Shown piece after piece: positions 7,436-26,050 of a DNA stretch of 60,684 nt. How positions within the stretch are numbered: position 1 is the first letter of the stretch; each line of letters opens with the position of its first letter. Location: the NCBI GenBank assembly GCA_022788185.1, contig JALEVV010000014.1:1-60684 (forward strand), written 5' to 3'. The position numbers and the translations under genes were made by a program. The DNA comes from Spirochaetales bacterium. Its GTDB lineage: Bacteria > Spirochaetota > Spirochaetia > Sphaerochaetales > Sphaerochaetaceae. The notes under the pieces were generated by a model. The model did not search any database and was not told the DNA's origin. It saw only the letters and a list, made by a program, of their open reading frames with translations.

Positions 7436-8455
7436 TCAGGCCCCGGCCCTTACTTCCGTGCTGAGCGCCTCCATGAAGCTCTCCACCTGCCTGATCGATG
7501 AACTGACCATGGCTTCGCTGAAGGAGAGGGCCCTGGCGATGAAGGCGATTGTTAGGCCCCTTCTCCTGCCTGCTTTTGATTCCTGATTGCTTCTGACCCT
7601 CCTTAGGGCAGCTTCGAGCTGTACCCTGAGTTCCTTTTTCTCCTCTTCGCTCGTTTTCGGATTATGGATTGCCGCAGTAAGCAGGACATAACGTTTCCAT
7701 GCCCTGTTGATTTTCCCATCCAGCCGCTCTTCCTTTACGACCTGCCGCTTTTCACTTTTACTGAAGAGCAGGGTGGAGAGTTCGGCGAAGCTGTGCTCTG
7801 AAACGTTCATCAGCTCTGAGAGATCCCTGATCTCACCGCTGGTCAGACTGTCGGTGTTTGAAAGCAGGAAGAGCATGAACCTGAGTCTGTTATCCCTCTC
7901 CCTGAGATACTCAAGCATTATGTCCCTCCTGATGTTTCCCGTGATGTGAGTGCATGGGACTGCGGTAACCACGTCCTCGATTATCTCATTAAGTGAGAGC
8001 TCTTCCGGCGGACGAGCAGGAGGTCCGTCTGACGATGGCATTGCATCCCATTCCGGTTCGAACTCGAAGACCTCGGATGCGTCCAGCATATTGACTGATG
8101 TATAGAGAAAATCATCGTCCTTCCTCATGCGTTCGTACTTTTTGGACATGAAGGCAAAGGCCCGTCCCTTCAGTATCACATGAAGGTAAGCGACGTATGG
8201 GACCGAGAGGGTAATCCGGTAGGACATGATTATCCTGTCAACACCCGGGAGCTGGGAGAGATAGAACTCACTGCACAGCTCCCTGTCCAGGTAGTAGGAG
8301 CGTCTGGGAATAAGGTATAAAAGCAGCTTCGTCTTTTCCCGTACGTATTCAAGCTCAGCAGTGTAATCACTGCCGTCGCTGCGTTTCTGAAACAGAATGG
8401 CAACCTTTTCTTCCAGCGCTTCCTGTTCTGCCTTCGTGATGAATCCGTTCTGCAT
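7436..8455 (-). CDS. Cytoplasmic protein of unknown function with possible sigma-region-2-like N-terminus
   Basis: This 339-residue soluble protein has no signal peptide or membrane segment. The ATG at 8455 follows GGAGGAGAG and is preferred over upstream codons. Residues about 35-110 (LLLYLIPRRSYYLDRE through YVAYLHVILKGRAFAF) have the pattern of hydrophobic, acidic and aromatic residues seen in sigma-factor region 2 and in sigma-like proteins of treponemes. A Pro/Ser-rich linker follows near 140-155. The C-terminal 150 residues are helical and strongly basic (RAWKRYV, RRVRSNQESKAGRRRG). A nucleic-acid or transcription role is plausible but unproven. It stands alone between the DHH gene and the hydrolase operon. 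Confidence 0.6.
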   Translation of the reverse strand: MQNGFITKAEQEALEEKVAILFQKRSDGSDYTAELEYVREKTKLLLYLIPRRSYYLDRELCSEFYLSQLPGVDRIIMSYRITLSVPYVAYLHVILKGRAFAFMSKKYERMRKDDDFLYTSVNMLDASEVFEFEPEWDAMPSSDGPPARPPEELSLNEIIEDVVTAVPCTHITGNIRRDIMLEYLRERDNRLRFMLFLLSNTDSLTSGEIRDLSELMNVSEHSFAELSTLLFSKSEKRQVVKEERLDGKINRAWKRYVLLTAAIHNPKTSEEEKKELRVQLEAALRRVRSNQESKAGRRRGLTIAFIARALSFSEAMVSSSIRQVESFMEALSTEVRAGA

Positions 8456-15915: not shown

Positions 15916-15987
15916 GCGAAAGTAGCTCAGTGGTAGAGCTCCACCTTGCCAAGGTGGATGTCGCGGGTTCAAGTCCCGTCTTTCGCT
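15916..15987 (+). tRNA. tRNA-Gly (anticodon GCC)
   Basis: A full cloverleaf is visible. The seven-base acceptor pairs gcgaaag with ctttcgc. The anticodon loop ttgccaa, inside the stem ccacc/ggtgg, gives anticodon GCC for GGC/GGU codons. The T-loop is ttcaagt. The discriminator is T, and the CCA end is not encoded. An identical copy lies at 19470-19541. Confidence 0.97.
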
Positions 15988-19098: not shown

Positions 19099-19171
19099 GG
19101 TGGAAGTAGTTCAGTGGTAGAGCGCCAGATTGTGGATCTGGTTGTCGAGGGTTCGAACCCCTTCTTCCACC
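19099..19171 (+). tRNA. tRNA-His (anticodon GTG)
   Basis: The extra G at position -1 (19099) pairs with C73, the hallmark of tRNA-His. The acceptor gtggaag pairs perfectly with cttccac. The anticodon loop ttgtgga within ccaga/tctgg gives GTG. The T-loop is ttcgaac. CCA is not encoded. It is the first gene of the array; a small hairpin lies between it and tRNA-Arg. Confidence 0.95.
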
Positions 19172-19193
19172 CACGCTGTTCTTCGGAACAGAT

Positions 19194-19267
19194 GCGCGCG
19201 TAGCTCAGCTGGATAGAGCGTCGGACTTCGAATCCGCAGGTCGCAGGTTCGTATCCTGCCGGGCGCA
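19194..19267 (+). tRNA. tRNA-Arg (anticodon TCG), structurally odd
   Basis: The overall cloverleaf is present, and the anticodon loop cttcgaa gives TCG for CGA/CGN codons. Two positions are abnormal. Acceptor gcgcgcg faces cgggcgc, leaving a G-G mismatch at pair 5:68. The T-loop is ttcgtat, so position 58 (base 19252), almost always A, is T. Pair 27:43 is also T-C. Discriminator A is present; CCA is not encoded. The gene may be real with unusual bases, a degrading gene, or carry sequence errors. Confidence 0.85.
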
Positions 19268-19279
19268 GCAAACAAAATT

Positions 19280-19352
19280 GTGCCGCTAGCTCAGCTGGTA
19301 GAGCAGCAGACTCTTAATCTGCGGGTCAAAGGTTCGATCCCTTTGCGGCTCA
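19280..19352 (+). tRNA. tRNA-Lys (anticodon CTT)
   Basis: The anticodon loop ctcttaa within gcaga/tctgc gives CTT for AAG. The T-loop ttcgatc and T-stem aaagg/ccttt are normal. The acceptor gtgccgc against gcggctc has one T-T mismatch at pair 2:71. Discriminator A; no encoded CCA. Confidence 0.93.
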
Positions 19353-19361
19353 TATCTCACC

Positions 19362-19442
19362 GCGAGAGTGGTGGAATTGGCAGACACGCTAGATTTAGGT
19401 TCTAGTATCGTTGATGTGCGGGTTCAAGTCCCGCCTCTCGCA
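19362..19442 (+). tRNA. tRNA-Leu (anticodon TAG)
   Basis: A class II tRNA of 81 bases with a long variable arm (tatcgttgatgt region). The acceptor gcgagag pairs perfectly with ctctcgc. The loop tttaggt within ctaga/tctag gives anticodon TAG for CUA/CUN codons. Discriminator A; no encoded CCA. Confidence 0.96.
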
Positions 19443-19469
19443 AGGACCTTTTCTAACGAGGTCGCAAAT

Positions 19470-19541
19470 GCGAAAGTAGCTCAGTGGTAGAGCTCCACCT
19501 TGCCAAGGTGGATGTCGCGGGTTCAAGTCCCGTCTTTCGCT
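19470..19541 (+). tRNA. tRNA-Gly (anticodon GCC), second identical copy
   Basis: The 72 bases are identical to the tRNA-Gly at 15916-15987, including the discriminator T. It is the last gene of the array and is followed six bases later by a strong terminator. Confidence 0.97.
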
Positions 19542-24231: not shown

Positions 24232-24261
24232 TTGACAAAGAAGCGACTAAAATTGTATCTA
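24232..24261 (+). promoter_or_regulatory. Promoter of the amt-glnB fusion gene
   Basis: A perfect TTGACA at 24232-24237, an 18-base spacer and TATCTA at 24256-24261 predict a start near 24268. The leader is then about 105 bases long and holds two terminator-like hairpins. No sigma-54 (GG-N10-GC) site was seen. Confidence 0.65.
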
Positions 24262-24274
24262 ATTGACCATCAAT

Positions 24275-24308
24275 GGTGATAGCAGATGACTGTTATCACC
24301 TTTTTTTT
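24275..24308 (+). terminator. First leader terminator (attenuator) of amt
   Basis: Arms 24275-24285 and 24290-24300 form an 11-base-pair stem with one G-T pair and an ATGA loop, followed at once by eight T residues. It lies inside the predicted leader, before the start codon, so it should end most transcripts unless it is prevented from forming. Opening the innermost pair gives a GATGAC hexaloop. Confidence 0.8.
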
Positions 24309-24358
24309 GGTACAACGGCGTACCGGGATTCACTTCTCGGTACGCCTTATCTTTTTTT
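24309..24358 (+). promoter_or_regulatory. Competing antiterminator hairpin and second leader terminator of amt
   Basis: GGTAC (24309-24313) pairs with GTACC (24320-24324) around the six-base loop AACGGC. This is mutually exclusive with a terminator stem made of GGCGTACCG (24317-24325) and CGGTACGCC (24338-24346), extendable by three inner pairs and followed by TTATCTTTTTTT. The loop has A at position 1 and G at position 4, the pattern bound by ANTAR-domain antiterminators. The ribosome site AGGAGAGGTG begins right after the T-run. Confidence 0.7.
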
Positions 24359-24373
24359 AGGAGAGGTGAAAAA

Positions 24374-26050
24374 ATGTTTTCAGCTGTTGACACGATCTGG
24401 GTACTGCTCGGGGCCGCACTGGTCTTTTTCATGCAGGCAGGTTTCGCTATGGTCGAGACCGGATTCACTAGGAGTAAGAATGCCGGTAACATCATCATGA
24501 AGAACGTCATGGACTACTGCATCGGTACAGTCGCGTTCTGGCTTGTGGGTTTCGGACTCATGTTTGCCGGAGATGGTCTTTTCTTTGGCGGCTTCGATCC
24601 GTTCATCCGCGGGGATTACTCCTCAACGTTCCCCACATTCGCTTTCGTAATTTTCCAGACGGTTTTCTGCGCCACAAGCGCAACGATCGTGTCAGGAGCC
24701 ATGGCTGAGAGAACGAAGTTCATCTCATACTGTATCTACAGCCTGCTCATCTCCCTTTTCGTATATCCCATTTCAGGTCACTGGATCTGGGGCGGCGGCT
24801 GGCTTGCCCAGCTCGGCTTCCATGACTTTGCCGGAAGCACGGCCGTTCACATGGTTGGCGGCGTCGCAGCCCTGATCGGTGCGATGTTCCTGGGACCCAG
24901 AATCGGCAAATACGATGAGAAGGGCAACCCGAAGGCAATTCCCGGCCACAGCCTTACGCTCGGTGCCCTCGGATGCTTCATCCTTTGGTTCTGCTGGTTC
25001 GGATTCAATGGCTGTTCAACAGTTTCAATGACAGGTGATGAGTCAATCGTTTCCGCATCAAAAATCTTCGTAACCACGAACATGGCTGCCGCAGTCGCCA
25101 CATGCACGACCATGATCCTTACCTGGGTCCGCTACAGGAAACCCGATGTCTCGATGACACTCAACGGCTCCCTTGCCGGTCTCGTCGCCATCACTGCAGG
25201 CTGTGATCTCGTGACACCCGTAGGTGCCGCAGTAATCGGTCTTGTCGCCGGTGTGCTCATCGTGTTCTCAGTTGAGTTCTTTGACAAGGTGACAAAGATC
25301 GATGACCCTGTCGGTGCCATCTCCGTTCACGGTGTCTGCGGTGCGGTCGGTACGATCCTCACAGGTGTGTTCGCAGAGGACATCGGACTCTTCTACGGCG
25401 GCGGATTCTCATTCCTCCTCACACAGCTTCTGGGTGTTGCATCGGTAATCCTCTGGGTTGTGGTCGTGATGACAATCATCTTCTTCGTGATCAAAAAGAC
25501 CATCGGCCTCAGGGTATCCGCTGAAGAGGAAATCGTCGGTCTCGACATCAAGGAGCACGGACTCACAAGCGCATATGCGGACTTTGCTCCCGTATACATG
25601 GGTGCCGCAGCAGCTGCTCCCGATGTTGACCTCGTGAAGGTCCCTGTCGAAAAGGCCGTCGAGACCTATGCCGATCCTGCTGTAAAGAGCGATGCGAAAC
25701 TCACGAAGGTCGTCATCATCGCCCGCCAGAACAAATTCAACGAGCTCAAGCATTCGCTCGGTCTCATCGGTGTCACCGGTCTTACGGTCAGCCATGTAAT
25801 GGGCTGCGGAATGCAGAAGGGCAAGACCGAATACTACAGAGGTGTTCCCGTTGAGATGACGCTCCTGCCGAAGATCAAGATCGAGACTGTTGTTTCGAAG
25901 GTTCCCGTAAGAAAGGTCGTCGACACGATCAAGAGTGTTCTCTACACAGGACACTACGGTGACGGTAAGATCTTCATCTACGACGTTGAGAACGTCATTA
26001 AGGTCAGAACCGGAGAGGAGGGTTACGACGCCCTTCAGGACGAGGAATAA
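24374..26050 (+). CDS. amt: Ammonium transporter fused to a C-terminal P-II regulatory domain
   Basis: This 558-residue protein joins an Amt channel to a GlnB/GlnK-like P-II domain. Residues about 1-410 form an 11-helix ammonium channel: the start FSAVDTIWVLLGAALVFFMQ, then MVETGF, FGLMFAGDG, GSTAVHMVGG and CGAVGTI carry the family signatures, including pore histidines. Residues about 440-545 match P-II: KVVIIARQNKFNELKHSL, then the T-loop region KTEYYRGVPVEM and KIKIETVV. In other bacteria P-II plugs Amt when nitrogen is plentiful, so fusion would make gating intramolecular. The protein is in the inner membrane. The ATG follows AGGAGAGGTG. Expression appears to be controlled by the attenuator leader upstream. 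Confidence 0.96.
   Translation: MFSAVDTIWVLLGAALVFFMQAGFAMVETGFTRSKNAGNIIMKNVMDYCIGTVAFWLVGFGLMFAGDGLFFGGFDPFIRGDYSSTFPTFAFVIFQTVFCATSATIVSGAMAERTKFISYCIYSLLISLFVYPISGHWIWGGGWLAQLGFHDFAGSTAVHMVGGVAALIGAMFLGPRIGKYDEKGNPKAIPGHSLTLGALGCFILWFCWFGFNGCSTVSMTGDESIVSASKIFVTTNMAAAVATCTTMILTWVRYRKPDVSMTLNGSLAGLVAITAGCDLVTPVGAAVIGLVAGVLIVFSVEFFDKVTKIDDPVGAISVHGVCGAVGTILTGVFAEDIGLFYGGGFSFLLTQLLGVASVILWVVVVMTIIFFVIKKTIGLRVSAEEEIVGLDIKEHGLTSAYADFAPVYMGAAAAAPDVDLVKVPVEKAVETYADPAVKSDAKLTKVVIIARQNKFNELKHSLGLIGVTGLTVSHVMGCGMQKGKTEYYRGVPVEMTLLPKIKIETVVSKVPVRKVVDTIKSVLYTGHYGDGKIFIYDVENVIKVRTGEEGYDALQDEE

Follow-up and report, generated by a model that had tools for sequence, protein, structure and literature searches.

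How a member of the Sphaerochaetaceae switches on its ammonium transporter is the question raised by a 60,684-nucleotide (nt) stretch of Spirochaetales bacterium DNA (assembly GCA_022788185.1, contig JALEVV010000014.1, positions 1 to 60,684, forward strand; hereafter the window), in which an amt-glnB fusion gene is preceded by a leader with two intrinsic terminators. The leader fills the gap from 24142, where a pseudouridine-synthase-like gene (named by reading) ends, to the amt-glnB start codon at 24374. Our analysis makes it very probable that it consists of two serial ANTAR attenuators, each with a single hexaloop, which an AmiR-like pseudo-receiver ANTAR protein would release under nitrogen scarcity.

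The first-pass annotation of this DNA had proposed a double terminator, and sequence, a terminator scan, and folding all verify both terminators (Table 1). It had also described a hairpin with an A1/G4 hexaloop whose right arm is common to the second terminator; this hairpin, here P2, is present, and P2 and terminator 2 are mutually exclusive. The paired-hairpin model of known ANTAR leaders had been judged to fit only in part, a second A1/G4 hexaloop being thought lacking and a GATGAC loop at the tip of terminator 1 being offered as the partner of P2. That second hexaloop does exist, in a hairpin (P1) that overlaps the 5′ arm of terminator 1, the two structures again being mutually exclusive. 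The GATGAC loop proved irrelevant and is not conserved: by eye, relatives differ from one another at this tip and keep the upstream hexaloop. The classical pair is the wrong frame here: each terminator has its own hexaloop, and the other genes of the regulon mostly have one.

Table 1. Features of the amt-glnB leader and gene (window coordinates)
Feature	Position	Strand	Basis
Predicted -35 box, TTGACA	24232..24237	+	sequence; position conserved in relatives
-10-like TGTATC, weak	24254..24259	+	16-nt spacer from TTGACA
P1, ANTAR-type hairpin ATC-AATGGT-GAT (loop 24272-24277)	24269..24280	+	hexaloop/terminator scan; same element in relatives
Terminator 1, stem 24275-24300, 11 pairs, plus eight T	24275..24308	+	sequence, terminator scan, folding
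P2, ANTAR-type hairpin GGTAC-AACGGC-GTACC (loop 24314-24319)	24309..24324	+	sequence, scan, folding, covariance model R1
Terminator 2, stem 24317-24346, 12 pairs, tail TTATCTTTTTTT	24317..24358	+	sequence, terminator scan, folding
amt-glnB fusion, Amt ammonium transporter with C-terminal P-II domain, 558 amino acids	24374..26050	+	open reading frame; PF00909, PF00543

Folding of the 166-nt leader gave -57.6 kcal/mol (z -5.9), a stability that none of 200 shuffles reached, and P2 by itself has a folding energy of -6.6 kcal/mol. When both strands of the 60-kilobase (kb) window were scanned for A1/G4 hexaloop hairpins overlapping a terminator, just the P1 and P2 sites were found. Extended to the window together with 20 fetched loci, the same scan returned 32 matches in 260,575 bases (one place being counted twice and the match at L061:7607 being taken as chance) versus 3 in 521,150 shuffled bases. 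Both window hairpins carry the mark of ANTAR targets, a six-nucleotide loop having A1 and G4 above a stem of 3 or more pairs, and both overlap a mutually exclusive intrinsic terminator. The two hairpins on a short linker that are also expected of such targets were not found, P1 and P2 being separated by 28 nt that include a terminator arm.

A generic promoter scan detected no sigma-70 site at the leader, and we therefore place the promoter by the conserved position of TTGAC, which begins 40-44 nt 5′ of the first loop in all 28 canonical amt leaders, as defined below. Within 37-50 nt 5′ of the loop, TTGAC precedes 28 of 28 first units and 0 of 28 second units in these leaders, from which it follows that both units would lie on one transcript starting almost at P1; a start site at the usual sigma-70 distance would put +1 no more than a few bases from P1. 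The same spacing is seen in two further samples, 28 units from the 20 fetched spirochaete loci and 75 units from 80 named ANTAR loci: TTGAC stands 39-48 nt 5′ of the loop in 22 and 51 of them, respectively, and other 10-nt windows gave 0-1 and 0-3. These positions bear on the possibility that terminator 1 merely ends the pseudouridine-synthase-like gene, leaving terminator 2 alone as regulatory. Terminator 1 does start only 133 nt past the stop of that gene, but the promoter-like TTGAC lies before the first hairpin, with none before the second in the tested range, and P1 persists, its pairs altered, in relatives that have a different upstream sequence, so that we hold this explanation to be extremely unlikely.

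To follow the leader through relatives, 31 amt leaders were collected by protein homology, 30 of them from one search with matches in 55 genomes and one from another; four amt loci were left out, namely L023 and L024, in both of which amt comes immediately after a different gene (GSIII by reading), and the more distant L030 and L031. Two canonical hexaloop hairpins are present in 28 of the 31 (25 distinct leaders), and no unit was seen by eye in four distant amt upstream regions (L025, L026, L030, and L031). The motif CANNGNNG, defined by sequence only, is flanked by at least 3 pairs in 59 of 66 cases in the last 220 nt of the 31 leaders, the control values being 40 of 328 on the coding strand and 28 of 332 on the antisense strand. 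Over 32 hairpin/terminator units, 95.3% of hairpin pairs are paired, with a covariation of 0.86 versus 0.03-0.20 when slid, and 99.2% of terminator pairs are kept with 79 two-sided changes, although the units were picked as terminators and partly for pairing, which inflates the paired percentages, and come from related, nonindependent genomes. Promoter position, gene context, and the CANNGNNG test are free of this selection flaw. The stems change in compensated fashion (CATC/GATG, ACGTC/GATGT, AAGC/GCTT; GTAC/GTGC, CACAC/GTGTG, ACGC/GCGT), and the loop is mostly constant, reading AANG(G/A)N within a C-G closing pair. In rows from 27 amt leaders, chosen by motif and in two cases by eye, A1 is kept in 17 of 17 distinct P1 rows and 20 of 21 distinct P2 rows, and G4 in 16 of 17 and 21 of 21. 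The alternative pairing, whose conservation in relatives the first-pass annotation had set as a check, is thus conserved and covarying.

Because two canonical hexaloops occur in so many amt leaders, P1 and P2 might be thought to form one classical dual-hexaloop site with terminator 1 merely in its linker, and EutV indeed needs both hexaloops, a longer linker abolishing induction (passages of PMC3369931 and PMC8934654). The spacing speaks against such a site: loop-to-loop distances in amt leaders run from 39 to 177 nt, which makes a fixed two-hairpin complex unlikely, whereas hairpin linkers are 5-12 nt in eut, where 14 nt already fails (passages of PMC3369931), and 2-25 nt in an actinobacterial set. 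P1 and P2 each overlap their own terminator, and the other regulon genes are mostly single-unit. A dual site is improbable on these grounds, and we prefer two single-hexaloop attenuators, each hexaloop acting on its own terminator.

The regulon was traced with R1, a covariance model built from the 32 units. With 150 of 351 first-look candidates scored, R1 gave nine matches in the genome at E ≤ 10, the best six at E ≤ 0.03. These six precede amt-glnB (two units), asnB, a circularly permuted ATP-grasp gene, a GATase_2 glutamate-synthase-type gene, and GSIII; both amt-glnB units belong to the training set of R1, and the other four targets do not. P2, itself a training unit, is the best match in the genome (36.2 bits). 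The three weak matches (L070, L071, and L072; E ≥ 0.16) resemble plain terminators and were dropped. From 150 nt upstream to 60 nt downstream, each of the four non-amt targets has one canonical hexaloop, the exception being a weak 3-pair match, AACGTG, 136 nt 5′ of the asnB loop.

Several other arrangements of units were seen. The circularly permuted ATP-grasp gene (PF14403/PF04174) behind unit L066 (G000:C15:7153-7199) is an unusual target for nitrogen control. Divergent pairs of units, ∼100-250 bases apart, are frequent: the unit of a glutamate-synthase-type gene stands back to back with one that belongs to glnA, GSIII, or AsnA (genes named by reading); examples are L057, L056, L058, L051, and L052 in spirochaetes and L131, L137, L149, L163, and L186 in named genomes. 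Genes for CTP synthase (pyrG) and asnB-like genes, named by their first residues, also have units in relatives (loci L059, L055, and L049).

The units co-occur with ANTAR genes. At E ≤ 1e-4, R1 matched 17 of 20 genomes with ANTAR versus 0 of 41 without among 61 genomes, most of the 17 having supplied training units. In a 139-genome family from which the training genomes were removed, the corresponding figures were 58 of 72 versus 5 of 51 (Fisher p ∼1e-15, uncorrected for kinship and with part of the candidates per genome scored). The genome of the window has one ANTAR-domain match (PF03861, 59.8 bits; Pfam match, 57.3 bits), so that a second check set in advance, the presence of an ANTAR protein, also came out positive, and its gene lies directly behind the glutamine synthetase gene glnA. 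Neither of the testable outcomes that would have spoken against it having appeared, the ANTAR interpretation as a whole is supported.

We infer that this single glnA-linked ANTAR protein is the regulator of the units. Its receiver-like half has no PF00072 match at E ≤ 0.001 and carries Asn (VVNSPLLD) at the position of the phospho-acceptor Asp, which sets it apart from phosphorylated REC-ANTAR proteins of the EutV type; that position is Asn in 6, Asp in 5, and Glu in 1 of 12 aligned ANTAR proteins. The Asn would favor regulation through a partner protein, the situation of AmiR, over regulation through a kinase, and as a guess that partner could be the glnA or PII product. A family profile of 190 positions aligns with 1s8n (Rv1626; 3-188), AmiR (54-185), and 6wsh (37-186), a chain that we take to be EutV, its residues fitting PMC8934654 with an offset of two. 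Mapped through the 6wsh alignment, the EutV residues K149, E160, and M172, each of which either holds the flipped G4 or plugs the loop (passages of PMC8934654), are unchanged in all 12 aligned relatives, and R175 is nearly invariant. In the 12 aligned glnA-linked proteins Tyr164 of EutV is replaced by His, as in AmiR, and Arg168, which contacts the RNA in EutV, by an invariant Glu; judged from the alignment, these two replacements may define a subfamily that recognizes the loop differently.

When the ANTAR profile was compared with named genomes, the closest match (among the best 80 of 540 relatives, a set from which records very close to the genome of the window may be missing) was in Bullifex porci. 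The same-genus genome G005 agrees with it letter for letter over its 10-kb ANTAR stretch and is the B. porci genome, which probably puts the window in the genus Bullifex (Spirochaetota; family Spirochaetaceae at NCBI). In B. porci a same-strand row consists of a unit, a class-II GATase glutamate-synthase gene, a large glutamate-synthase-like gene, an oxidoreductase gene, a GXGXG-type gene, glnA, the ANTAR gene, and, directly after it, pyrG (L045; names by reading and Pfam). The same row in the genome of the window seems to be split over two contigs, the end of C18 and the start of C31, which we would join. An ANTAR gene in a row headed by a unit suggests autoregulation.

These associations also bear on whether the leader could be a small-molecule riboswitch or metabolite-sensing terminator, responding for example to glutamine, with the CAANGRCG strand in its pocket and the co-occurrence with ANTAR incidental. 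A short conserved element at the base of a terminator before nitrogen genes is what such a device would look like, six examined genomes have units and no detected ANTAR gene, and at the gathering score no Rfam family was found on the leader, the only matches in the window being six tRNAs. Yet the loop A1 and G4 and the closing C-G pair match the known ANTAR recognition rule, the units are strongly associated with ANTAR genes, one of which sits in a row headed by a unit, and little is conserved beyond the 6-nt loop and its closing pair, all of which makes a metabolite sensor very improbable. The six tRNA genes lie elsewhere in the window, with a single gene at 15916-15987 and a run of five at 19100-19541.

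Single hexaloops per terminator are not confined to this genome. Within 100 nt upstream, a second C-ANNGNN-G hairpin of at least 4 pairs was found for 1 of 28 spirochaete units and 2 of 75 units of the named ANTAR loci, with 0 of 28 and 3 of 75 in a control 500 nt farther up; 60-160 nt downstream, the counts were 3 of 28, in a set that includes the amt pairs, and 2 of 75. Six eutP regions served as positive control for the classical hexaloop pair, which was found in one, that of Romboutsia lituseburensis (loops 26 nt apart, 437 nt 5′ of the eutP match), the five others being negative. Among the 80 named ANTAR loci, 48 have at least one C-AANGNN-G unit, with 71 units in total versus 2 in one shuffle, and 36 of the 50 loci of at least 15 kb carry a unit; three Treponema-labeled loci (L126, L166, and L202) have none. 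Single-unit ANTAR control specific to spirochaetes was rejected, as units also occur in ANTAR loci of Clostridia/Bacillota, before GSIII, AsnA, carA, GSI, and class-II GATase (glutamate-synthase-type) genes, and in one Fibrobacterota locus, before a GXGXG gene (targets outside the spirochaetes were verified by Pfam in six cases and otherwise by eye). We think it reasonably likely that ANTAR attenuators of this kind, using a single hexaloop for each terminator at the very 5′ end of the transcript, form a broad class that runs ammonium assimilation in the spirochaete family, many Clostridia, and one or more Fibrobacterota genomes. Their regulator would be a glnA-linked ANTAR protein whose pseudo-receiver, devoid of the Asp in the protein from the genome of the window, needs no kinase, and amt-glnB would lie behind two serial gates.

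Two leaders differ from the common layout. The glutamate-synthase leader of G032 (L048, ∼8309-8410, minus strand) has an extra upstream hexaloop, AGAC-AAAGAA-GTCT, with no terminator detected there, and may be a dual form or an intermediate between the single and the dual motif. The clostridial GSIII leader L180 (6413 to 6244, minus strand) seemingly has two tandem units ∼170 nt apart.

By analogy with EutV, AmiR, and NasR, on which both default termination and stabilization of the hexaloop hairpin by the active ANTAR protein are modeled, the amt-glnB leader would work as follows. Transcription would start almost at P1, and by default the nascent RNA would fold terminator 1, and then terminator 2 if the polymerase passes, so that little amt-glnB mRNA is made. 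Since the genes controlled are nitrogen genes, the signal would be nitrogen shortage; under that condition, most likely, the active ANTAR protein would grip the A1/G4 hexaloop of P1 and keep its strand from terminator 1. Repeating this at P2 would leave terminator 2 without its 5′ arm and let transcription run into amt-glnB, each hexaloop acting alone on its own terminator. ANTAR binding, antitermination, and the signal with its direction are in this scheme the parts that we infer.

A number of observations weigh against this interpretation. In the window, the P1 stem has 3 pairs only and an energy of +0.1 kcal/mol, against -2.3 for an alternative tetraloop hairpin at that place; the -10 box is poor (3 of 6 consensus positions), and a TTGACC stands 51 nt 5′ of the P2 loop, just beyond the tested 37-50 range. 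Three amt leaders depart from the pattern: the P1 loop of L021 has A4 and the P2 loop of L205 has G1, though both genomes have ANTAR, and L019 has no unit, its genome, G020, being also without an ANTAR match. Five genomes with strong R1 matches have no ANTAR domain at E ≤ 0.001 (G107, G115, G130, G135, and G138), and in the training genome G010 amt leader units likewise occur without an ANTAR match; when all six were searched with a full-length profile, no clear ANTAR protein was found, and the assemblies of G115 and G135 are 95% complete. Conversely, the ANTAR genomes G068 and G069 gave no R1 match at 0.002 (42 candidates per genome scored), and of the 80 named ANTAR loci, 32 gave no unit. 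The partial selection of covariation units for pairing and the two-loop requirement of EutV, both given above, belong on the same side.

A GnfR/nif antitermination system is known from Geobacter. Predicted ANTAR leaders have already been placed before ammonium transporters, PII, and glutamine and glutamate synthases (passages of PMC3369931). The leader described here resembles the eut leaders of Enterococcus faecalis in its A1/G4 hexaloop hairpins, whose right arm overlaps an intrinsic terminator, in its ANTAR regulator, and in nitrogen-related targets. It differs in that eut has two hexaloops 5-12 nt apart per terminator, whereas here there is one for each, at the transcript start and in two serial units; and unlike EutV, with its phospho-acceptor Asp54 (passages of PMC8934654), the protein has Asn. 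AmiR of Pseudomonas aeruginosa is likewise a pseudo-receiver ANTAR protein with His at the loop-stacking position and acts by antitermination, as its counterpart here probably does, but AmiR is controlled by AmiC, and the amidase leader is described with two hexaloops (passages of PMC3369931). An ANTAR response-regulator gene also lies in ammonia-assimilation clusters of Clostridium acetobutylicum (nitR) and C. thermocellum (Clo1313_2030), where Clo1313_2260 is described with AmtB and PII domains; the passages of PMC4676874 concerned with these antiterminators describe no RNA element. In PMC8934654, Walshe et al. (2022) proposed, on structural grounds, a single hexaloop as the minimal ANTAR site, predicted that such sites may exist, and called for bioinformatic analysis; in our leaders the single hexaloops are attenuators at the transcript start.

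As the first-pass annotation had supposed, no described ANTAR leader from spirochaetes was found in the open literature, the supplementary lists of earlier ANTAR surveys lying outside this scope; nor was any paper linking ANTAR with Sphaerochaeta, or an ANTAR antiterminator with Treponema, most subscription papers likewise lying outside it. As far as the open literature shows, the natural single-hexaloop-per-terminator attenuators at the transcript start, their arrangement as two in series, and their presence in spirochaetes are new.

The question why EutV needs two hexaloops when its dimer binds one at a time is raised in passages of PMC8934654, where a recruitment model is offered. A hexaloop at the very start of a transcript would leave no room for a recruitment hairpin, and the single-loop layout is simpler than the two-loop design described so far. 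If our interpretation is true, one-hexaloop leaders would allow that question to be tested directly with short, well-defined RNAs, and the element would be a compact, stackable on-switch. It would further hint at the way in which many anaerobes, among them spirochaetes and Clostridia, control ammonium assimilation.
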